64,000 nt of DNA from Acetobacter lovaniensis. Lineage in GTDB: Bacteria > Pseudomonadota > Alphaproteobacteria > Acetobacterales > Acetobacteraceae. Positions 30,322 through 35,912 of the stretch are shown here, one piece after another. Position 1 is the stretch's first letter. Each line of letters begins with the position of its first letter. Both the position numbers and the translations under genes were made by a program. The stretch lies in contig NZ_JACHIE010000001.1 of the NCBI RefSeq assembly GCF_014207635.1, forward strand, positions 620,001-684,000, read 5' to 3'. Below the pieces are notes generated by a model. The model saw only the letters and a list, made by a program, of their open reading frames with translations. It did not search any database and was not told the origin of the DNA.

Positions 30322-32370
30322 CTAGAGGGCGCCATTCATGGTGATCTGGCCATTTTTAACAATATCGGCCAGTGTTGCGGGCCGTCCCAGCAGAAACCCC
30401 TGAGCCTCATAACACCCGGCGGCATTGAGCATGCTCAACTGCTCCGCGGTCTCGATCCCCTCCGCCATGACCGAAGTGCCAAACGCCCTGCCCAAAGCCA
30501 GAACCGCGCGCACAATCGCCTGTGTATGCTCGCTGGTCTGCATGACCCCAAAAAATGAGCGGTCAATCTTTATGCGGTCAAAAGGAAAACGGCGCAGCGT
30601 ATCCAGCGAGGAATACCCAGTGCCAAAATCATCCAGCGCCAGACTGACCCCCATATCCTTGATCTGGTGCAGCACCTGCAAAGCACGGGCCTGATCGGCA
30701 ATAAAGGTCGATTCTGTCAGTTCCAGTTCCAGCCTTTGGGGGGGCAGCCCTGTTTCTTTCAGAATATTGGCTACAATGCGGGCAATGTCCGAGTGGACAA
30801 ACTGCATGCCCGACAGGTTGACCGCAACCGTATAGGGCTGGAGCCACTGCACGGCCTCGGCACAGACGCAGCGGAGCACCCACTCCCCAATCTGCAGGAT
30901 CAGATCGCTCTCTTCGGCCAGCGGAATAAAATCATCCGGCATAATGGTGCCCTGTGTGGGATGCTCCCATCGCACCAGTGCCTCGTAGCCACGGATTTCC
31001 CCCGTGGCGACCACTCTTTGCACCTGATAGCAGATGGTTAACTGCCCGGTCTCGACCGCTTGGCGCAGGTCCGCGGAGAGCTTGCGCCGGATGCGCACTT
31101 TTTCATCCATCGAGGGTTCATAAAAACACGGATGTCGCCCCCGCTCGGCCTTGGCGCGATACATGGCCAGATCAGCATTGTTGATCAGGGTTTCCTTGTC
31201 CGCTGCATGGTCGGGCCATATGGCCACGCCCAGACTGGCGCCGGGCCGCACTTCCGTATCCTCAAACCGGATGGGCTTGAACAGGGCTTCCTCCAGCCTG
31301 TGCAAAAAACCCTTGGTCTGTTCGGTCGAGACAACACGGCACAGAGCCAGAAACTCGTCCCCTCCGGTGCGGGCAATAAACTCGCCGCTCCTGTTATTCT
31401 GCAATCCCCGCAACCGCCACCCCAGAATGCGCAGAACCTCGTCCCCCGCACTGTGGCCACGCAGGTCGTTAATTTCCTTGAATCTGTTCAGGTCGATCCC
31501 GATCAGCGCCAGCCTGCCGTTGTTCTCACGCGCCCAGTCCAGTTCACGGTCGAGACGTTGATGAAAGTTCAGCCGGTTGGGCAGGCCGGTCAACGTATCG
31601 TGCAGGGCCATCCGCCGCAGCTTTTCCACCGACTCCGCGCGTGAACTGTCATCAATCATGCCGCTGACCAGCCCACCCCCAAGGATAAGGAAAGACATGA
31701 TGGCAATGGCTGCGGCCAGAACCAGCGTATCCTCGGAGTGCTCCATGCTCTGCATGACAGAAGAGCCAGCCTGCACATGGTAGGCCGCCATGCCAATAAA
31801 ATGGACGGACAGAACCGCCAGCGCCAGCACAGCGGCCATACAGGCACTGGCCCATCGCCCGGGCCGAACCCCGGCGCGCACAGCCAGCACACACAGCACA
31901 ATGGCTGCCAGCACCGAAAGCACAAGACAGGGCACGTTCCATAATGTCTGCCCCTGCACGCGGTAAGCCAGCATGCCAGTATAATGCATGGCAACAATAG
32001 CCAGTCCGACCGTAACGCCACCCAGTTCGGGCAGAAAACGGGCAAAACGGCAGGTCGCCAGCATAAAGCCGATTGTACTGCCAAAAACGGCAATCAGCAG
32101 GGATATGCTGGTCAGCAAAGGATCAAACCGTGCGGGGGTATTCCCAACGTACCCCAACATGGCCACAAAGTGTGTACACCAGATTGCAATCCCGCCTGAA
32201 AGAGAGGTCAAAAAAAGCCACGCGTACCACTGGTTGTTTTTGGCCCGCAAAGCATGCTGGAACAAAGAGGCGGTCACTCCGGCACCAGAAATGCACAACA
32301 CGATGGCCACACAGACCAGCCCGAGGTCATGCTGGCCAATAATGCACCCTACAACCCTCATCCGACGCAT
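30322..32370 (-). CDS. MHYT-GGDEF-EAL membrane protein
   Basis: This predicted c-di-GMP turnover enzyme has 682 residues. The N-terminal MHYT module (about 10-235) has seven or so membrane helices with the repeat HFVAMLGY, AMHYTGMLAY and HFIGMAAYH, thought to bind a metal and sense a gas or redox ligand. A GGDEF domain follows (about 255-415) with intact RTGGDEFLAL, then an EAL domain (about 430-675) with intact YEALVRWEH and ALDDFGTGYSSL. Both catalytic motifs are preserved, so cyclase and phosphodiesterase activity are both possible. It stands alone, with non-coding gaps either side. Confidence 0.93.
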   Translation of the reverse strand: MRRMRVVGCIIGQHDLGLVCVAIVLCISGAGVTASLFQHALRAKNNQWYAWLFLTSLSGGIAIWCTHFVAMLGYVGNTPARFDPLLTSISLLIAVFGSTIGFMLATCRFARFLPELGGVTVGLAIVAMHYTGMLAYRVQGQTLWNVPCLVLSVLAAIVLCVLAVRAGVRPGRWASACMAAVLALAVLSVHFIGMAAYHVQAGSSVMQSMEHSEDTLVLAAAIAIMSFLILGGGLVSGMIDDSSRAESVEKLRRMALHDTLTGLPNRLNFHQRLDRELDWARENNGRLALIGIDLNRFKEINDLRGHSAGDEVLRILGWRLRGLQNNRSGEFIARTGGDEFLALCRVVSTEQTKGFLHRLEEALFKPIRFEDTEVRPGASLGVAIWPDHAADKETLINNADLAMYRAKAERGRHPCFYEPSMDEKVRIRRKLSADLRQAVETGQLTICYQVQRVVATGEIRGYEALVRWEHPTQGTIMPDDFIPLAEESDLILQIGEWVLRCVCAEAVQWLQPYTVAVNLSGMQFVHSDIARIVANILKETGLPPQRLELELTESTFIADQARALQVLHQIKDMGVSLALDDFGTGYSSLDTLRRFPFDRIKIDRSFFGVMQTSEHTQAIVRAVLALGRAFGTSVMAEGIETAEQLSMLNAAGCYEAQGFLLGRPATLADIVKNGQITMNGAL

Positions 32371-32533: not shown

Positions 32534-33187
32534 TCAAACCGTCATCATGACAATCCTGTGCACCCACACCTTATCCTCCCGCGCGGGAGGTGCATGCACC
32601 TCGCCCCCGCGAAAAGAGCAGACGGCAGGCCCTTCCGGTCCATGCAGCATCAACCCCATAACAGGCTCACGACCGGGGCCATGCAGCAGAACCCTGTCCC
32701 CCTCCCGCAGTGGAAGTGACGGCACCACAACAACCGCCCCGCCATCACGCACAACTGGCTCCATACCATCAGTATCCACCCGCACAACATAGGCATCAGG
32801 CTCACCCCACCATTGACCGGGCGAGGCCTCATGCTCCCACACCGGGCCACAGGGCAGCCCGTACTGGTCAAACACGCCAGTCTGCTGGAGCATGGAATAC
32901 GCAAGGGTACGCAACAGTCCCCCGCCTTCGTCCGGCATGGTCGGATTCAGCCCCTCCCCTGCAACGGAGCGGGCAAAAACCGCCAGCGGCACCTGCAAAA
33001 CGTCCAGCACCCGCAAAAGCGTGGGCAGCGACGGCCAGCGCATGACACCACCCGCCCCCACCCTGCGCGAAGGATTGAGCGCCGTGGCGTCCAGCCCCGC
33101 CGCCCGTGCAAGGGCGGAAGGCGTAAACCCCCGCTCACGCGCAAGCATATCCAGCGTGTGCCAGAAGACCTGCGACTGCGCGATCAT
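32534..33187 (-). CDS. HTH / S24-fold regulator lacking catalytic Ser-Lys
   Basis: The 217-residue protein has an N-terminal helix-turn-helix region (GFTPSALARAAGLDATALNPS, residues 21-40) with a Cro/CI-type layout, and a C-terminal LexA/CI S24 peptidase fold (about 120-215; YVVRVDTDGMEPVVRDGG and VWVHRIV). In self-cleaving members the motif is DSM with Ser as nucleophile; here it reads DGM (Gly141), and the Lys expected about 40 residues later is replaced (EPVMGLML). Self-cleavage is therefore unlikely. It overlaps the 94-aa gene by four bases and lies close downstream of gcd. Confidence 0.8.
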   Translation of the reverse strand: MIAQSQVFWHTLDMLARERGFTPSALARAAGLDATALNPSRRVGAGGVMRWPSLPTLLRVLDVLQVPLAVFARSVAGEGLNPTMPDEGGGLLRTLAYSMLQQTGVFDQYGLPCGPVWEHEASPGQWWGEPDAYVVRVDTDGMEPVVRDGGAVVVVPSLPLREGDRVLLHGPGREPVMGLMLHGPEGPAVCSFRGGEVHAPPAREDKVWVHRIVMMTV

Positions 33188-33468
33188 GACCGGGGGGATG
33201 AAGTGGGTGCAGGCTTGCCCTGATGCCTGAGCACTTCCTGCGCATGGCGGGCCAGCCCTGCATCTGTTGCCACAAAGCGTGACTGTGCCGTGCGCTCAGC
33301 CAGCCCCATCCGCTCGAGCCGCTCAAGGCATGGGCCATCCATCAGGCCGCAGGGGCGGCCACATGCACCGGCAAGGTAGAGCCTGTGCAGGGCGGAGCGG
33401 CAGCATGTTTCCAGGTAAGGGTCATTCCACATTCCGTGCAGGATCACCGATCCCGCACGGAACTGCAA
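33184..33468 (-). CDS. Hypothetical protein between gcd and the S24-fold regulator
   Basis: I do not recognise this 94-residue protein. It is Cys- and Arg-rich in its first half (ETCCRSAL, GACGRPCGL, GPCLERLERMGL) and helical in its second (TDAGLARHAQEVLRHQG), where the sequence resembles a winged-helix or small helical domain only loosely. Its stop overlaps the regulator's ATG by four bases, and its start is 26 bases after the gcd stop, which argues that it is a real gene in a gcd operon. Confidence 0.6.
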   Translation of the reverse strand: MQFRAGSVILHGMWNDPYLETCCRSALHRLYLAGACGRPCGLMDGPCLERLERMGLAERTAQSRFVATDAGLARHAQEVLRHQGKPAPTSSPRS

Positions 33469-33494
33469 GGCTTACTCCGTGGTCCTGCCCGTTA

Positions 33495-35912
33495 TCAGCG
33501 GGATGCTTCGGGCAGGGCATAGGCCACAATGTAATCCCCTTCCTTCGTGCCAAAGGAGCCATGTCCGCCATCGACCGTAACAACATACTGGCGGCCATTG
33601 GCTTCATACGTCATGGGGGTGGACTGGCCACCCGCGGGCAGACGGTCCGCCCACAGGACCTTGCCGGTCGTCACATCATAGGCACGGATGTAATAATCGG
33701 CTGTGGAGGTCAGGAACGCGACCCCACCTGCGGTAATAATTGGCCCACCAAGGGAGGGAATGCCCACCTTAAAGCCAAATGGCAGGGGGGAACTATCCCG
33801 TGTTGTGCCATTCCGGTGCTGCCAGATAATGCTGTTGGTCTTCAGGTCCACCCCGGCCACATAGCCCCAGCCGGGCTGCTTGCACGGAATACCAAGGGGG
33901 GACAGGAACGGATGCAGTTCCACCCCGAACGGTGTGCCGTACTGGGGCTGCAACCCGTTCTCTCCCCCACTTGCGGCGGGGTCATGCGTGGTTGGTGGCA
34001 CAACCTGATTATCTGTCGGACGCGGCACAAGGCGGGAGACAAACGGAATGGCGATGGGGTTGGCAAACGCCACCTGCCGCACGGGGTCCACGGCCAGACC
34101 GCCCCATTCAAACATGCCCAGATTACCGGGAAAAACCAGCGTGCCCTGCACGGAAGGCGGCGTAAACGGTCCTTCGTAACGCAGTTTCTTGAACATGATG
34201 CGGCACACCATCTGGTCCAGCATGGTGGCACCCCACATATCCCCATCCGTCAGCCTGTTTTTGGGGCGGAAAGTCAGTTGAGAAAACGGCTGCGTTGCCC
34301 AGACATGGTCGCCCTGCGCGGCACCCTGCGGTACAGGCAGTTCGGGCGCTGGCACCAGCAGTTGGCCGTTACGGCGGTCGAGCACAAAAATATTGCCTGT
34401 TTTGGCCGGAGCATACAGCGCGGGAATAACCGTGCCATCTTCCTGCCTGAAGTCGATCAGGCTGGGCTGGGCCGGTACATCCATGTCCCACAGGTCGTGG
34501 TGGACCGTCTGGTAGAACCAGACCTTGTGCCCTGTCCGGGCATCCAGCGCCAGAATGCCTGATGCGTACCGCTCCTGCACATCTGTCCGTTTGCCACCCC
34601 ATATGTCGGGCGTTGCCACACCGGTAGGAATATAGATAAGTCCCAGTTTGGCATCGTAAGCCGAAACAATCCACGAATTAGGCGAATTGGGCGTGTATTC
34701 GTGACTGTCGGAGGGGAGCTGGTTCGGATCCTCATTCCCCGGATCAAACGCCCAGACCAGCTTGCCGCTATACAGGTCATACGCCCGCGTCACACCCGAG
34801 GGTTCGTGCGTGGAGTAATTATCCGTAACCGCGCCAGAGATAATAACCAGCTTGTCCGTGACCACGGGAGGTGACGTTGGCTCATAAAACCCGAGGACGC
34901 GCATAGGCATGCCTTCGGTCAGGTCCACAACGCCCTTATTGCCGAAGGCTGGGCATACCTGACCCGTTTTTGCATCCAGCGCCACCAGCCGCCCGTCATT
35001 GACGGGCAGAAAAATACGCTCCGCACAGGAGGCTGACGTTGCCGCACCATCCAGCACCTCTGCACCGTCTGCTGCGCGGGGGGGCGTGAGCGCATAGGAC
35101 ACACCACGGCAGGTCAGATGCTGGAATGTCGGGTTAACCACCAGCTTGGGGTCAAACCGCCAGACCTGCCTGCCAGTCGCCGCATCCAGCGCGAACACGA
35201 CCTGATGGGGTGAGCACAGGTAGAGCGTGTTGCCAACCTTGATCGGCGTTGTCTCATCCGTCACTTCCACCGGATCATCCGGTCCGCGCAGGTCGTGGGT
35301 TCTAAAGGTCCAGGCAACCTTGAGCTTATCCACATTGCCCGTTGTTATCTGATTGAGGGGGGAATAGCGGTCCCCCGCCTGCGTGCGCCCATAGGCGGGC
35401 CAGTCCTGCGCCGGTACAGCGGCCACCTCACCCGGAAGCTGCACACCCGCATGGATAGCCTGCGCACGGGGGAGCACACCCGTTACATCCTGCGGGTCCT
35501 GCGTAAGCGCATAGCCATAGACACCCAACCCGGCCACAATAACCGCCAGCAGGGGAACACGGTTCCAGATGGATGCTGGCTGCAACGCCCCTGCTACAAA
35601 AGGCAGCAGCAGCCACACTCCCAGCGGTAGAATAACATCCCCTCTGGGTGCCAGTGCCCAGAAGTCAAACCCCGCTTCGGTGACGGACCAGACAAGTGTG
35701 CCCGCAGCAACGGCCGCATAAAGCCACAATGCCTCGCGCCGCTGCATCCAGAGCAGCCCTCCGGTTACCACAAGAGCCAGACCGCATACCGCGTAAAAAG
35801 CGGAACCACCCAGAACGGCCAGCCAGCCGCCTCCCCCCGCCAGAACAAAACCAAGCACAACGCAGAACAGCGCCGTGATTTTTGACAGACTATGGGAACG
35901 GCCGCCTTGCAT
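33495..35912 (-). CDS. gcd: Membrane-bound PQQ-dependent glucose dehydrogenase
   Basis: The enzyme oxidises D-glucose to glucono-1,5-lactone in the periplasm and passes electrons to ubiquinone. The 805-residue protein has five N-terminal membrane helices (about residues 10-135), then the eight-bladed propeller. The first blade region reads AYGRTQAGDRYSPLNQI. Further motifs match E. coli Gcd: LYLCSPHQVVFALDAATG, TCRGVSY and HDLWDMDVPAQPSLIDF. Quinate/shikimate dehydrogenases share this architecture, so the substrate is the most likely rather than proven. The ATG at 35912 has AAGGAG ten bases upstream; a longer frame begins at 35945. It is the first gene of a probable three-gene unit. Confidence 0.87.
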   Translation of the reverse strand: MQGGRSHSLSKITALFCVVLGFVLAGGGGWLAVLGGSAFYAVCGLALVVTGGLLWMQRREALWLYAAVAAGTLVWSVTEAGFDFWALAPRGDVILPLGVWLLLPFVAGALQPASIWNRVPLLAVIVAGLGVYGYALTQDPQDVTGVLPRAQAIHAGVQLPGEVAAVPAQDWPAYGRTQAGDRYSPLNQITTGNVDKLKVAWTFRTHDLRGPDDPVEVTDETTPIKVGNTLYLCSPHQVVFALDAATGRQVWRFDPKLVVNPTFQHLTCRGVSYALTPPRAADGAEVLDGAATSASCAERIFLPVNDGRLVALDAKTGQVCPAFGNKGVVDLTEGMPMRVLGFYEPTSPPVVTDKLVIISGAVTDNYSTHEPSGVTRAYDLYSGKLVWAFDPGNEDPNQLPSDSHEYTPNSPNSWIVSAYDAKLGLIYIPTGVATPDIWGGKRTDVQERYASGILALDARTGHKVWFYQTVHHDLWDMDVPAQPSLIDFRQEDGTVIPALYAPAKTGNIFVLDRRNGQLLVPAPELPVPQGAAQGDHVWATQPFSQLTFRPKNRLTDGDMWGATMLDQMVCRIMFKKLRYEGPFTPPSVQGTLVFPGNLGMFEWGGLAVDPVRQVAFANPIAIPFVSRLVPRPTDNQVVPPTTHDPAASGGENGLQPQYGTPFGVELHPFLSPLGIPCKQPGWGYVAGVDLKTNSIIWQHRNGTTRDSSPLPFGFKVGIPSLGGPIITAGGVAFLTSTADYYIRAYDVTTGKVLWADRLPAGGQSTPMTYEANGRQYVVTVDGGHGSFGTKEGDYIVAYALPEASR

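Follow-up and report, generated by a model that had tools for sequence, protein, structure and literature searches.

We analysed a 64,000-nucleotide stretch of the Acetobacter lovaniensis genome (hereafter the window; NCBI RefSeq assembly GCF_014207635.1, contig NZ_JACHIE010000001.1, positions 620,001 to 684,000), focusing on a gene for a helix-turn-helix (HTH) regulator with an S24 fold, referred to here as S24. Upstream of it, and likewise on the minus strand, lie a small gene, p94, and gcd, which encodes a glucose dehydrogenase. All three reading frames are real, and p94 and S24 overlap by 4 nt, as originally proposed. Our analysis suggests that the window S24 is probably the orphaned, non-cleavable repressor of a lost, domesticated podovirus-like cassette, and that it probably still acts on a cell-wall enzyme gene. 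We read it as an orphan because, in relatives, such a cassette sits between p94 and an S24 whose catalytic Ser-Lys dyad is intact.

In the scenario that we favor, S24 would descend from a self-cleaving repressor of the CI/LexA type, encoded divergently from a T7-like virion operon in other Acetobacteraceae and Alphaproteobacteria. This operon, located between p94 and S24, would have been deleted in the ancestry of Acetobacter, as suggested by synteny and by an intermediate form seen in a relative. The deletion would have turned p94 and S24 into neighbors, which overlap by four bases in the window. The S24 protein has lost its cleavage site, its Ser and its Lys, and is predicted to be a regulator that RecA-stimulated self-cleavage can no longer release. 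Its most likely binding site is still the palindrome TAGGA-N6-TCCTA, now mainly upstream of an unlinked gene for a CHAP-domain (peptidoglycan-hydrolase-type) protein. Sequence comparisons support well the proposed descent from a cassette repressor and the loss of cleavage, while we infer the present target from the distribution of the motif.

Acetobacter S24 proteins lack the self-cleavage apparatus

The window protein matched the Pfam S24 family below threshold (21.3 bits against a cut-off of 23.3) and had no NCBIfam family match. Because a phmmer search against PDB sequences gave nothing at E 10, its fold was predicted by modelling. An AlphaFold2 model built from 31 sequences (pLDDT 88, pTM 0.59) matched lambda CI, LexA and UmuD in Foldseek, with 3bdn as the best match (E 9e-7). 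By this predicted structure, the window protein is an HTH joined to an S24 fold of the CI/LexA type.

To place the catalytic residues, we aligned S24 orthologues from 189 genomes, comprising 46 Acetobacter, 113 other members of the family and the 30 best matches from the class Alphaproteobacteria (the best 30, not a random draw). The S24 fragment of G175 was not scorable and G093 is partial; 45 Acetobacter sequences could be scored. The original prediction that the Ser and Lys of the dyad are missing was borne out, as Gly141 and Gly178 occupy these columns in the window protein, and the Ala-Gly pair that forms the presumed cleavage site is gone too. Ser and Lys are both kept in 0 of 46 Acetobacter sequences (one of them a fragment), in 92 of 113 from the rest of the family and in 28 of 30 from the class sample. 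Among the 69 dyad-broken orthologues, Lys is never kept and Ser is kept in eight, three of them from Acetobacter. The scorable Acetobacter sequences have lost Lys in all 45 cases, Ser in 42 and Ala-Gly in 45. By comparison, the Ala-Gly pair is present in 120 of 120 dyad-intact orthologues and in one of 67 scorable broken ones. Since Ser, Lys and Ala-Gly are all gone, the loss in the Acetobacter clade goes beyond two residues and takes in the entire self-cleavage apparatus. The window S24 protein should therefore be unable to self-cleave, a prediction that these three losses support well and that agrees with the earlier proposal of a repressor that no longer cuts itself.

A T7-like virion cassette separates p94 and S24 in relatives

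In many non-acetic Acetobacteraceae, p94 and S24 lie ~12 kb apart, and the interval holds an operon that is conserved gene by gene in four genomes, mostly at 45-77% identity. Its order, as read in one genome, is gene1, gene2, portal (PF12236), T7-type scaffold (PF05396), capsid (PF19821), tail tube A, tail tube B, fibre and the terminase gene TerL; gene1 and gene2 of that genome had no family match (Pfam, and PHROG for gene1). The operon is divergent from S24 and convergent with p94. Host genes make up the six flanking genes scanned, with dihydroorotate (DHO) dehydrogenase and DUF952 genes on one side and lysylphosphatidylglycerol synthase and lysyl-tRNA synthetase genes on the other in the genome examined. 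No integrase or replication gene was recognized among the nine cassette genes (one genome) or the six flanking genes scanned (three loci). Relatives, outside the window itself, thus carry phage genes for virion structure and DNA packaging at a constant position among host genes, as is expected of a gene transfer agent (GTA).

We examined 80 named p94 loci, which include Roseomonas-like genera, Acetobacter, Gluconacetobacter and others, and found TerL convergent with p94 in 37, S24 without TerL in 35 and neither in 8; 36 of the 37 TerL-bearing loci have all detected genes in T7 order. Of 150 family genomes, 31 carry the capsid gene, and each of these 31 has a dyad-intact S24; none of the 49 Acetobacter genomes carries it. 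In the class sample, cassette genes were seen beside S24 at 14 of 30 loci, and the complete order in three of seven 18-kb regions. The closest annotated phages among the matches listed infect Pelagibacter, Methylophilales and Vibrio (capsid 29-44%, tail tube B ~30-34%); closer still (capsid 51%) is MT838907, a faecal phage record without annotation.

The ~12-kb virion operon of T7/HTVC010P-like type, fixed in position among host genes and accompanied by a dyad-intact S24, can be seen at loci L059, L060, L062 and L075 of the Acetobacteraceae and at L206-L208 of other families. We regard this operon, from its gene content and position, as a candidate podovirus-type GTA or other domesticated particle. 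Second and more distant capsid copies (28-51%) in genomes G044, G047 and G059 are perhaps ordinary prophages. Gene1 (L062:3385-3888) encodes a small conserved protein and faces away from S24 also at loci that show no further cassette gene.

Cassette loss probably preceded dyad loss

Cassette genes were present in the fetched S24 locus of 43 of the 189 genomes, and all 43 are dyad-intact. Where gene1 alone was found beside S24, the dyad is intact in 44 cases and broken in one. Where neither was seen and at least 1 kb upstream was visible, the ratio of intact to broken dyads was 12 to 16 in the rest of the family, 0 to 45 in Acetobacter and 14 to 2 in the class sample. These counts cover the fetched stretch alone: a capsid gene is present elsewhere in G036 and G112, both counted under neither, and in G120, counted under gene1 alone, and G087 is among the 43 cassette loci yet has no capsid match. 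The sampled genomes are also of unequal completeness.

Intermediate forms were found as well. Dyad-intact S24 without a cassette exists, for example in Plastoroseomonas hellenica, where p94 and S24 are adjacent, and G124 is the deletion form of its congener G044. On a tree of S24 built from 186 of the 189 rows, Acetobacter forms one group, and the dyad is intact in 87 of the 88 rows in which S24 has gene1 or cassette genes next to it. The simplest order of events would be loss of the cassette first and of the dyad later. Because the losses are few, this series is consistent but not a statistical proof.

A candidate operator lies upstream of a CHAP-domain gene

A motif search of the region between S24 and gene1 in 73 genomes returned the half-palindrome TTTTCCTATT. 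A strict pattern derived from it was searched in 49 Acetobacter genomes; among 30 fetched matches, 12 belong to one homologous locus, and only that clustering is informative. At this shared locus, a near-perfect palindrome (ATAGGAATTAATTCCTAT and variants) precedes, by ~135-200 nt, the likely start of a gene for a CHAP-domain protein (PF05257) whose N-terminus, judged by eye, is signal-like. The palindrome is conserved even at loci with poorly aligning flanks (L293, L294). In the window genome, the CHAP gene lies outside the window (L319, G000:C12:72406-73056), with the palindrome at C12:73208-73224.

We then compared genomes with and without S24, using the consensus TAGGA-N6-TCCTA, which was written after the first sites had been seen. 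The comparison covered 110 genomes (the 30 best matches and 80 chosen ones, out of 146 in the family that have a CHAP match), with one CHAP copy considered per genome; a looser anchor or the match start was used for three CHAP loci without a strict anchor. Allowing up to two mismatches, the consensus was found upstream of CHAP in 66 of 80 genomes with S24 versus 10 of 30 without it (Fisher test, 3.3e-6, without phylogenetic correction), and a reversed control in 14 of 80 and 6 of 30, respectively. Allowing at most one mismatch, the numbers were 30 of 80 versus 4 of 30. The same consensus at up to two mismatches occurs in 57 of 73 S24-gene1 regions (reversed control 7 of 73), which are partly the training set of the motif, and upstream of S24 in 23 of 30 class regions (control 11 of 30). 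The regions upstream of gcd and p94 held no such site, the best having three mismatches, and no site with zero or one mismatch occurs in the whole 64-kb window. Upstream of p94 in Acetobacter, the best scores of the operator motif were within the shuffled range. Motif conservation and co-occurrence together suggest that S24 most likely binds the palindrome upstream of CHAP, and a cell-wall enzyme gene appears a more likely target of S24 than glucose use.

Alternative explanations

Several observations weigh against S24 being the orphan of a lost cassette that now acts on the CHAP gene. At 14 of the 30 class loci, S24 is dyad-intact with no cassette gene in view within ~1.4 kb, so a different role of S24 from the outset is conceivable. 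Dyad loss needs only four changes on the S24 tree, of which supported branches force only two; with so few changes, cassette loss and dyad loss do not represent many independent events, and a phylogenetically independent-pairs test had two pairs, too few to reach significance. The class member L097 has a broken dyad and keeps both Ser and Ala-Gly. With respect to the operator, the strict pattern matched 55 times in 49 Acetobacter genomes versus 75 times in the reversed control, and G118 and G029, which are nearly complete and S24-less, keep a one-mismatch site upstream of CHAP.

The cassette-free loci among these 30 best class matches would fit an account in which S24, together with gene1, has long served the host in regulating alphaproteobacterial cell-envelope genes. 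The cassette would have been captured next to it later, come under its control and then been lost; the Acetobacter form would be a variant that no longer needs cleavage, and no orphan. Long S24 matches (>110 bits) in 53 of 190 class genomes, the window genome included, point the same way, as do the family-wide CHAP motif and the 45 family loci with gene1 beside S24 and no other cassette gene, one of which (G120) has a capsid gene on another contig. We consider this account possible but on the unlikely side, given that phrog_4 (E 3.5e-26), the best PHROG match of a dyad-intact S24 orthologue, is a phage transcriptional repressor and that the divergent layout and conserved gene order recur in distant families.

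We are similarly doubtful that another regulator binds the CHAP palindrome, with the co-occurrence of S24 reflecting shared ancestry of genomes that lost both and with the target of S24 lying elsewhere. The same palindrome geometry is found beside S24 itself, and it was the pattern from there that led to the CHAP locus. This explanation nevertheless gains from the missing phylogenetic correction of the Fisher test, from the size of the S24-less genomes (17 of 30 are <3 Mb) and from the four of 30 that keep a site with zero or one mismatch, two of which (G012, G074) are only 86-87% complete and could hide an S24 gene.

Decay of S24 into a future pseudogene under relaxed selection is very improbable, despite the absence of S24 matches from 3 of 49 Acetobacter and 34 of 150 family genomes (46 and 116 have one, respectively) and split matches in G160 and G175, as the ratio of nonsynonymous to synonymous substitution rates (dN/dS) in 12 Acetobacter pairs is well below 1 (0.07-0.31, and 0.04-0.18 in the HTH part) and 17 of the first 51 residues are invariant in 31 sequences. 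The S24 gene is thus under purifying selection and not decaying, and the conserved HTH suggests that Acetobacter S24 probably still binds DNA.

The small protein p94 and the neighboring gcd gene

The coordinates of the features in the window are collected in Table 1. The gene upstream of S24 had been described as encoding a 94-aa protein that begins 26 bases after gcd. The reading frame (33184-33468) is real, but the probable start is the ATG at 33432, 62 nt after gcd. Conservation begins only at the ATG or GTG before a W-x-x-PYLETCCR motif, so p94 is ~82 aa long. The TTG at 33468 falls within the element CTTGCA-N17-TGATCC, in its promoter-like -35 box. A strict expression for this element was matched 35-42 nt before the p94 start in 24 of 44 Acetobacter upstream regions and not in the other 20 (shuffles 0.5%), and the element is present also in species without an adjacent gcd.

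Table 1. Features of the p94-S24 region, in window coordinates.
Feature	Position	Strand	Basis or remark
HTH + S24-fold regulator, 217 aa, probably an orphaned CI/LexA-like protein	32534..33187	-	AlphaFold2, Foldseek, orthologue matches
Gly178 codon at the catalytic Lys column (MAK to VMG)	32654..32656	-	alignment of 189 orthologues; coordinates from start 33187
Gly141 codon at the catalytic Ser column (DSM to DGM)	32765..32767	-	same 189-orthologue alignment; coordinates from start 33187
Leu100-Gln101, where intact orthologues have Ala-Gly (presumed cleavage site)	32885..32890	-	orthologue alignment
p94, 82 aa if read from ATG 33432, predicted to be winged-helix-like; shares 4 nt with S24	33184..33432	-	conservation, AlphaFold2, Foldseek
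Promoter-like CTTGCA-N17-TGATCC, just 5' of the p94 ATG	33441..33469	-	contains TTG 33468, taken earlier as start
gcd, membrane-bound pyrroloquinoline quinone (PQQ) glucose dehydrogenase, 816 aa	33495..35945	-	neighbor, not evidently part of the p94-S24 unit

The p94 protein carries an almost invariant motif, W-x-x-PYLETCCRxxLHR...GRP...D-x-PCL, with three invariant Cys residues; C10, C11, C35 and H16 do not vary in 48 aligned sequences, and a metal or redox site at the Cys residues is possible. Its AlphaFold2 model (pLDDT 84) has predicted helices and a wing, and Foldseek returned MarR-like matches with a probability of up to 0.99 but an E of 0.1 or worse. No NCBIfam family matched p94. The window copy is 96% identical to that of the A. 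fabarum locus, which places the window genome close to A. fabarum within Acetobacter.

Matches to p94 were found in 46 of 49 Acetobacter and 111 of 150 Acetobacteraceae genomes, and the three Acetobacter genomes without S24 are the same three that lack p94. As for p94 as a possible partner of S24, the two matches lie within ~80 nt on the same strand in 46 of the 46 Acetobacter genomes having S24, but the association is not obligate in the family, where 88 of the 150 sampled genomes have both, 23 have p94 only and 28 have S24 only.

The gcd product passes the NCBIfam model TIGR03074 (1085.6 bits against a cut-off of 832.65), which defines a membrane PQQ dehydrogenase subfamily. We assessed its linkage by reading the match tables of p94 and gcd, the latter holding the best-scoring rows. 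Among the matches listed, gcd lies within 200 nt of the p94-S24 pair in 15 of 46 Acetobacter genomes and within ~3 kb in 22 of 46; in the remaining genomes, the gcd match is elsewhere or the contig ends (for example in G189). The expectation that all three genes stay together was thus not upheld, while the p94-S24 pair is constant (46 of 46), and gcd is a neighbor in a subset of species. In one genome, gcd matches beside p94 as two separate pieces (G152:C1:228733-232016) and is possibly interrupted. Downstream of S24, on the same strand, the window encodes an MHYT-GGDEF-EAL protein (30322-32370).

The original prediction had S24 sensing a ligand tied to glucose oxidation and repressing it together with the small Cys-rich protein. 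A distance of 66-200 nt between gcd and the pair in those 15 genomes (again among the matches listed) is what such a role might look like, and the three invariant Cys residues of p94 could bind metal or sense redox state. However, gcd is not adjacent in most genomes, the pair has its own promoter-like element, no operator motif was found at gcd, and dyad loss is clade-wide (0 of 45 scorable Acetobacter sequences keep Lys) and not tied to gcd. We therefore consider a glucose-linked repressor highly unlikely, and a gcd operon was rejected on linkage, promoter and operator evidence.

Implications

Taken as the remnant of a cassette repressor, the dead dyad beside gcd ceases to be an oddity and would become the end of an evolutionary series, from particle genes with an intact switch, through loss of the genes with the switch still intact, to a switch no longer open to cleavage. 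Roseomonas-like Acetobacteraceae and other alphaproteobacterial families have a T7-like cassette at a constant position among host genes, and in the literature searched, in which subscription journals and preprints were thinly covered, we found no title or abstract on this locus, on an Acetobacteraceae-conserved T7-like cassette or on this regulator. The analysis also provides a candidate operator and a candidate target gene in the host, both accessible in ordinary laboratory strains of vinegar bacteria.

More speculatively, an old domesticated T7/HTVC010P-like particle system of Alphaproteobacteria, a podovirus-type GTA or similar, may have been switched by a self-cleaving S24 that, via TAGGA-N6-TCCTA, also controlled a CHAP lysin of the host. 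In acetic acid bacteria, the particle genes would then have disappeared and the repressor become fixed in a form that cannot be cleaved, while the lysin branch of the regulon persisted; the window would carry this disabled switch.

Comparison with known systems

The S24 family members lambda CI, LexA and UmuD share the HTH and S24 architecture and fold, and dyad-intact orthologues of the window protein keep Ala-Gly, Ser and Lys, whereas the window protein is without all three cleavage elements. A precedent is LexA of Synechocystis, a LexA-type protein that reportedly does not auto-cleave and serves other processes (PMC13416735); that protein is a cyanobacterial LexA orthologue, while the family studied here adjoins a virion cassette in relatives. 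FddR of Francisella (PMC13148647) is an S24 protein read as a co-opted phage repressor that controls itself and divergent genes via a palindrome. It is part of a DNA-damage response, whereas the window protein has lost its cleavage elements and its divergent partner is gone.

The cassette of the relatives resembles RcGTA, CcGTA, BaGTA and FpGTA in that phage-derived head, tail and terminase clusters are kept at host loci. It differs from these GTAs in being T7/HTVC010P-like, RcGTA and CcGTA being of another type. The portal and terminase of BaGTA are called lambda-like in PMC2697382. Among the matches listed, the annotated phages nearest to the cassette are Pelagibacter phages EXVC031P (capsid 44%) and HTVC010P (tail tube B 32%) and Methylophilales phage MEP301 (tail tube B 34%), whose genomes of ~34-35 kb contrast with the ~12 kb of structural genes in the cassette.

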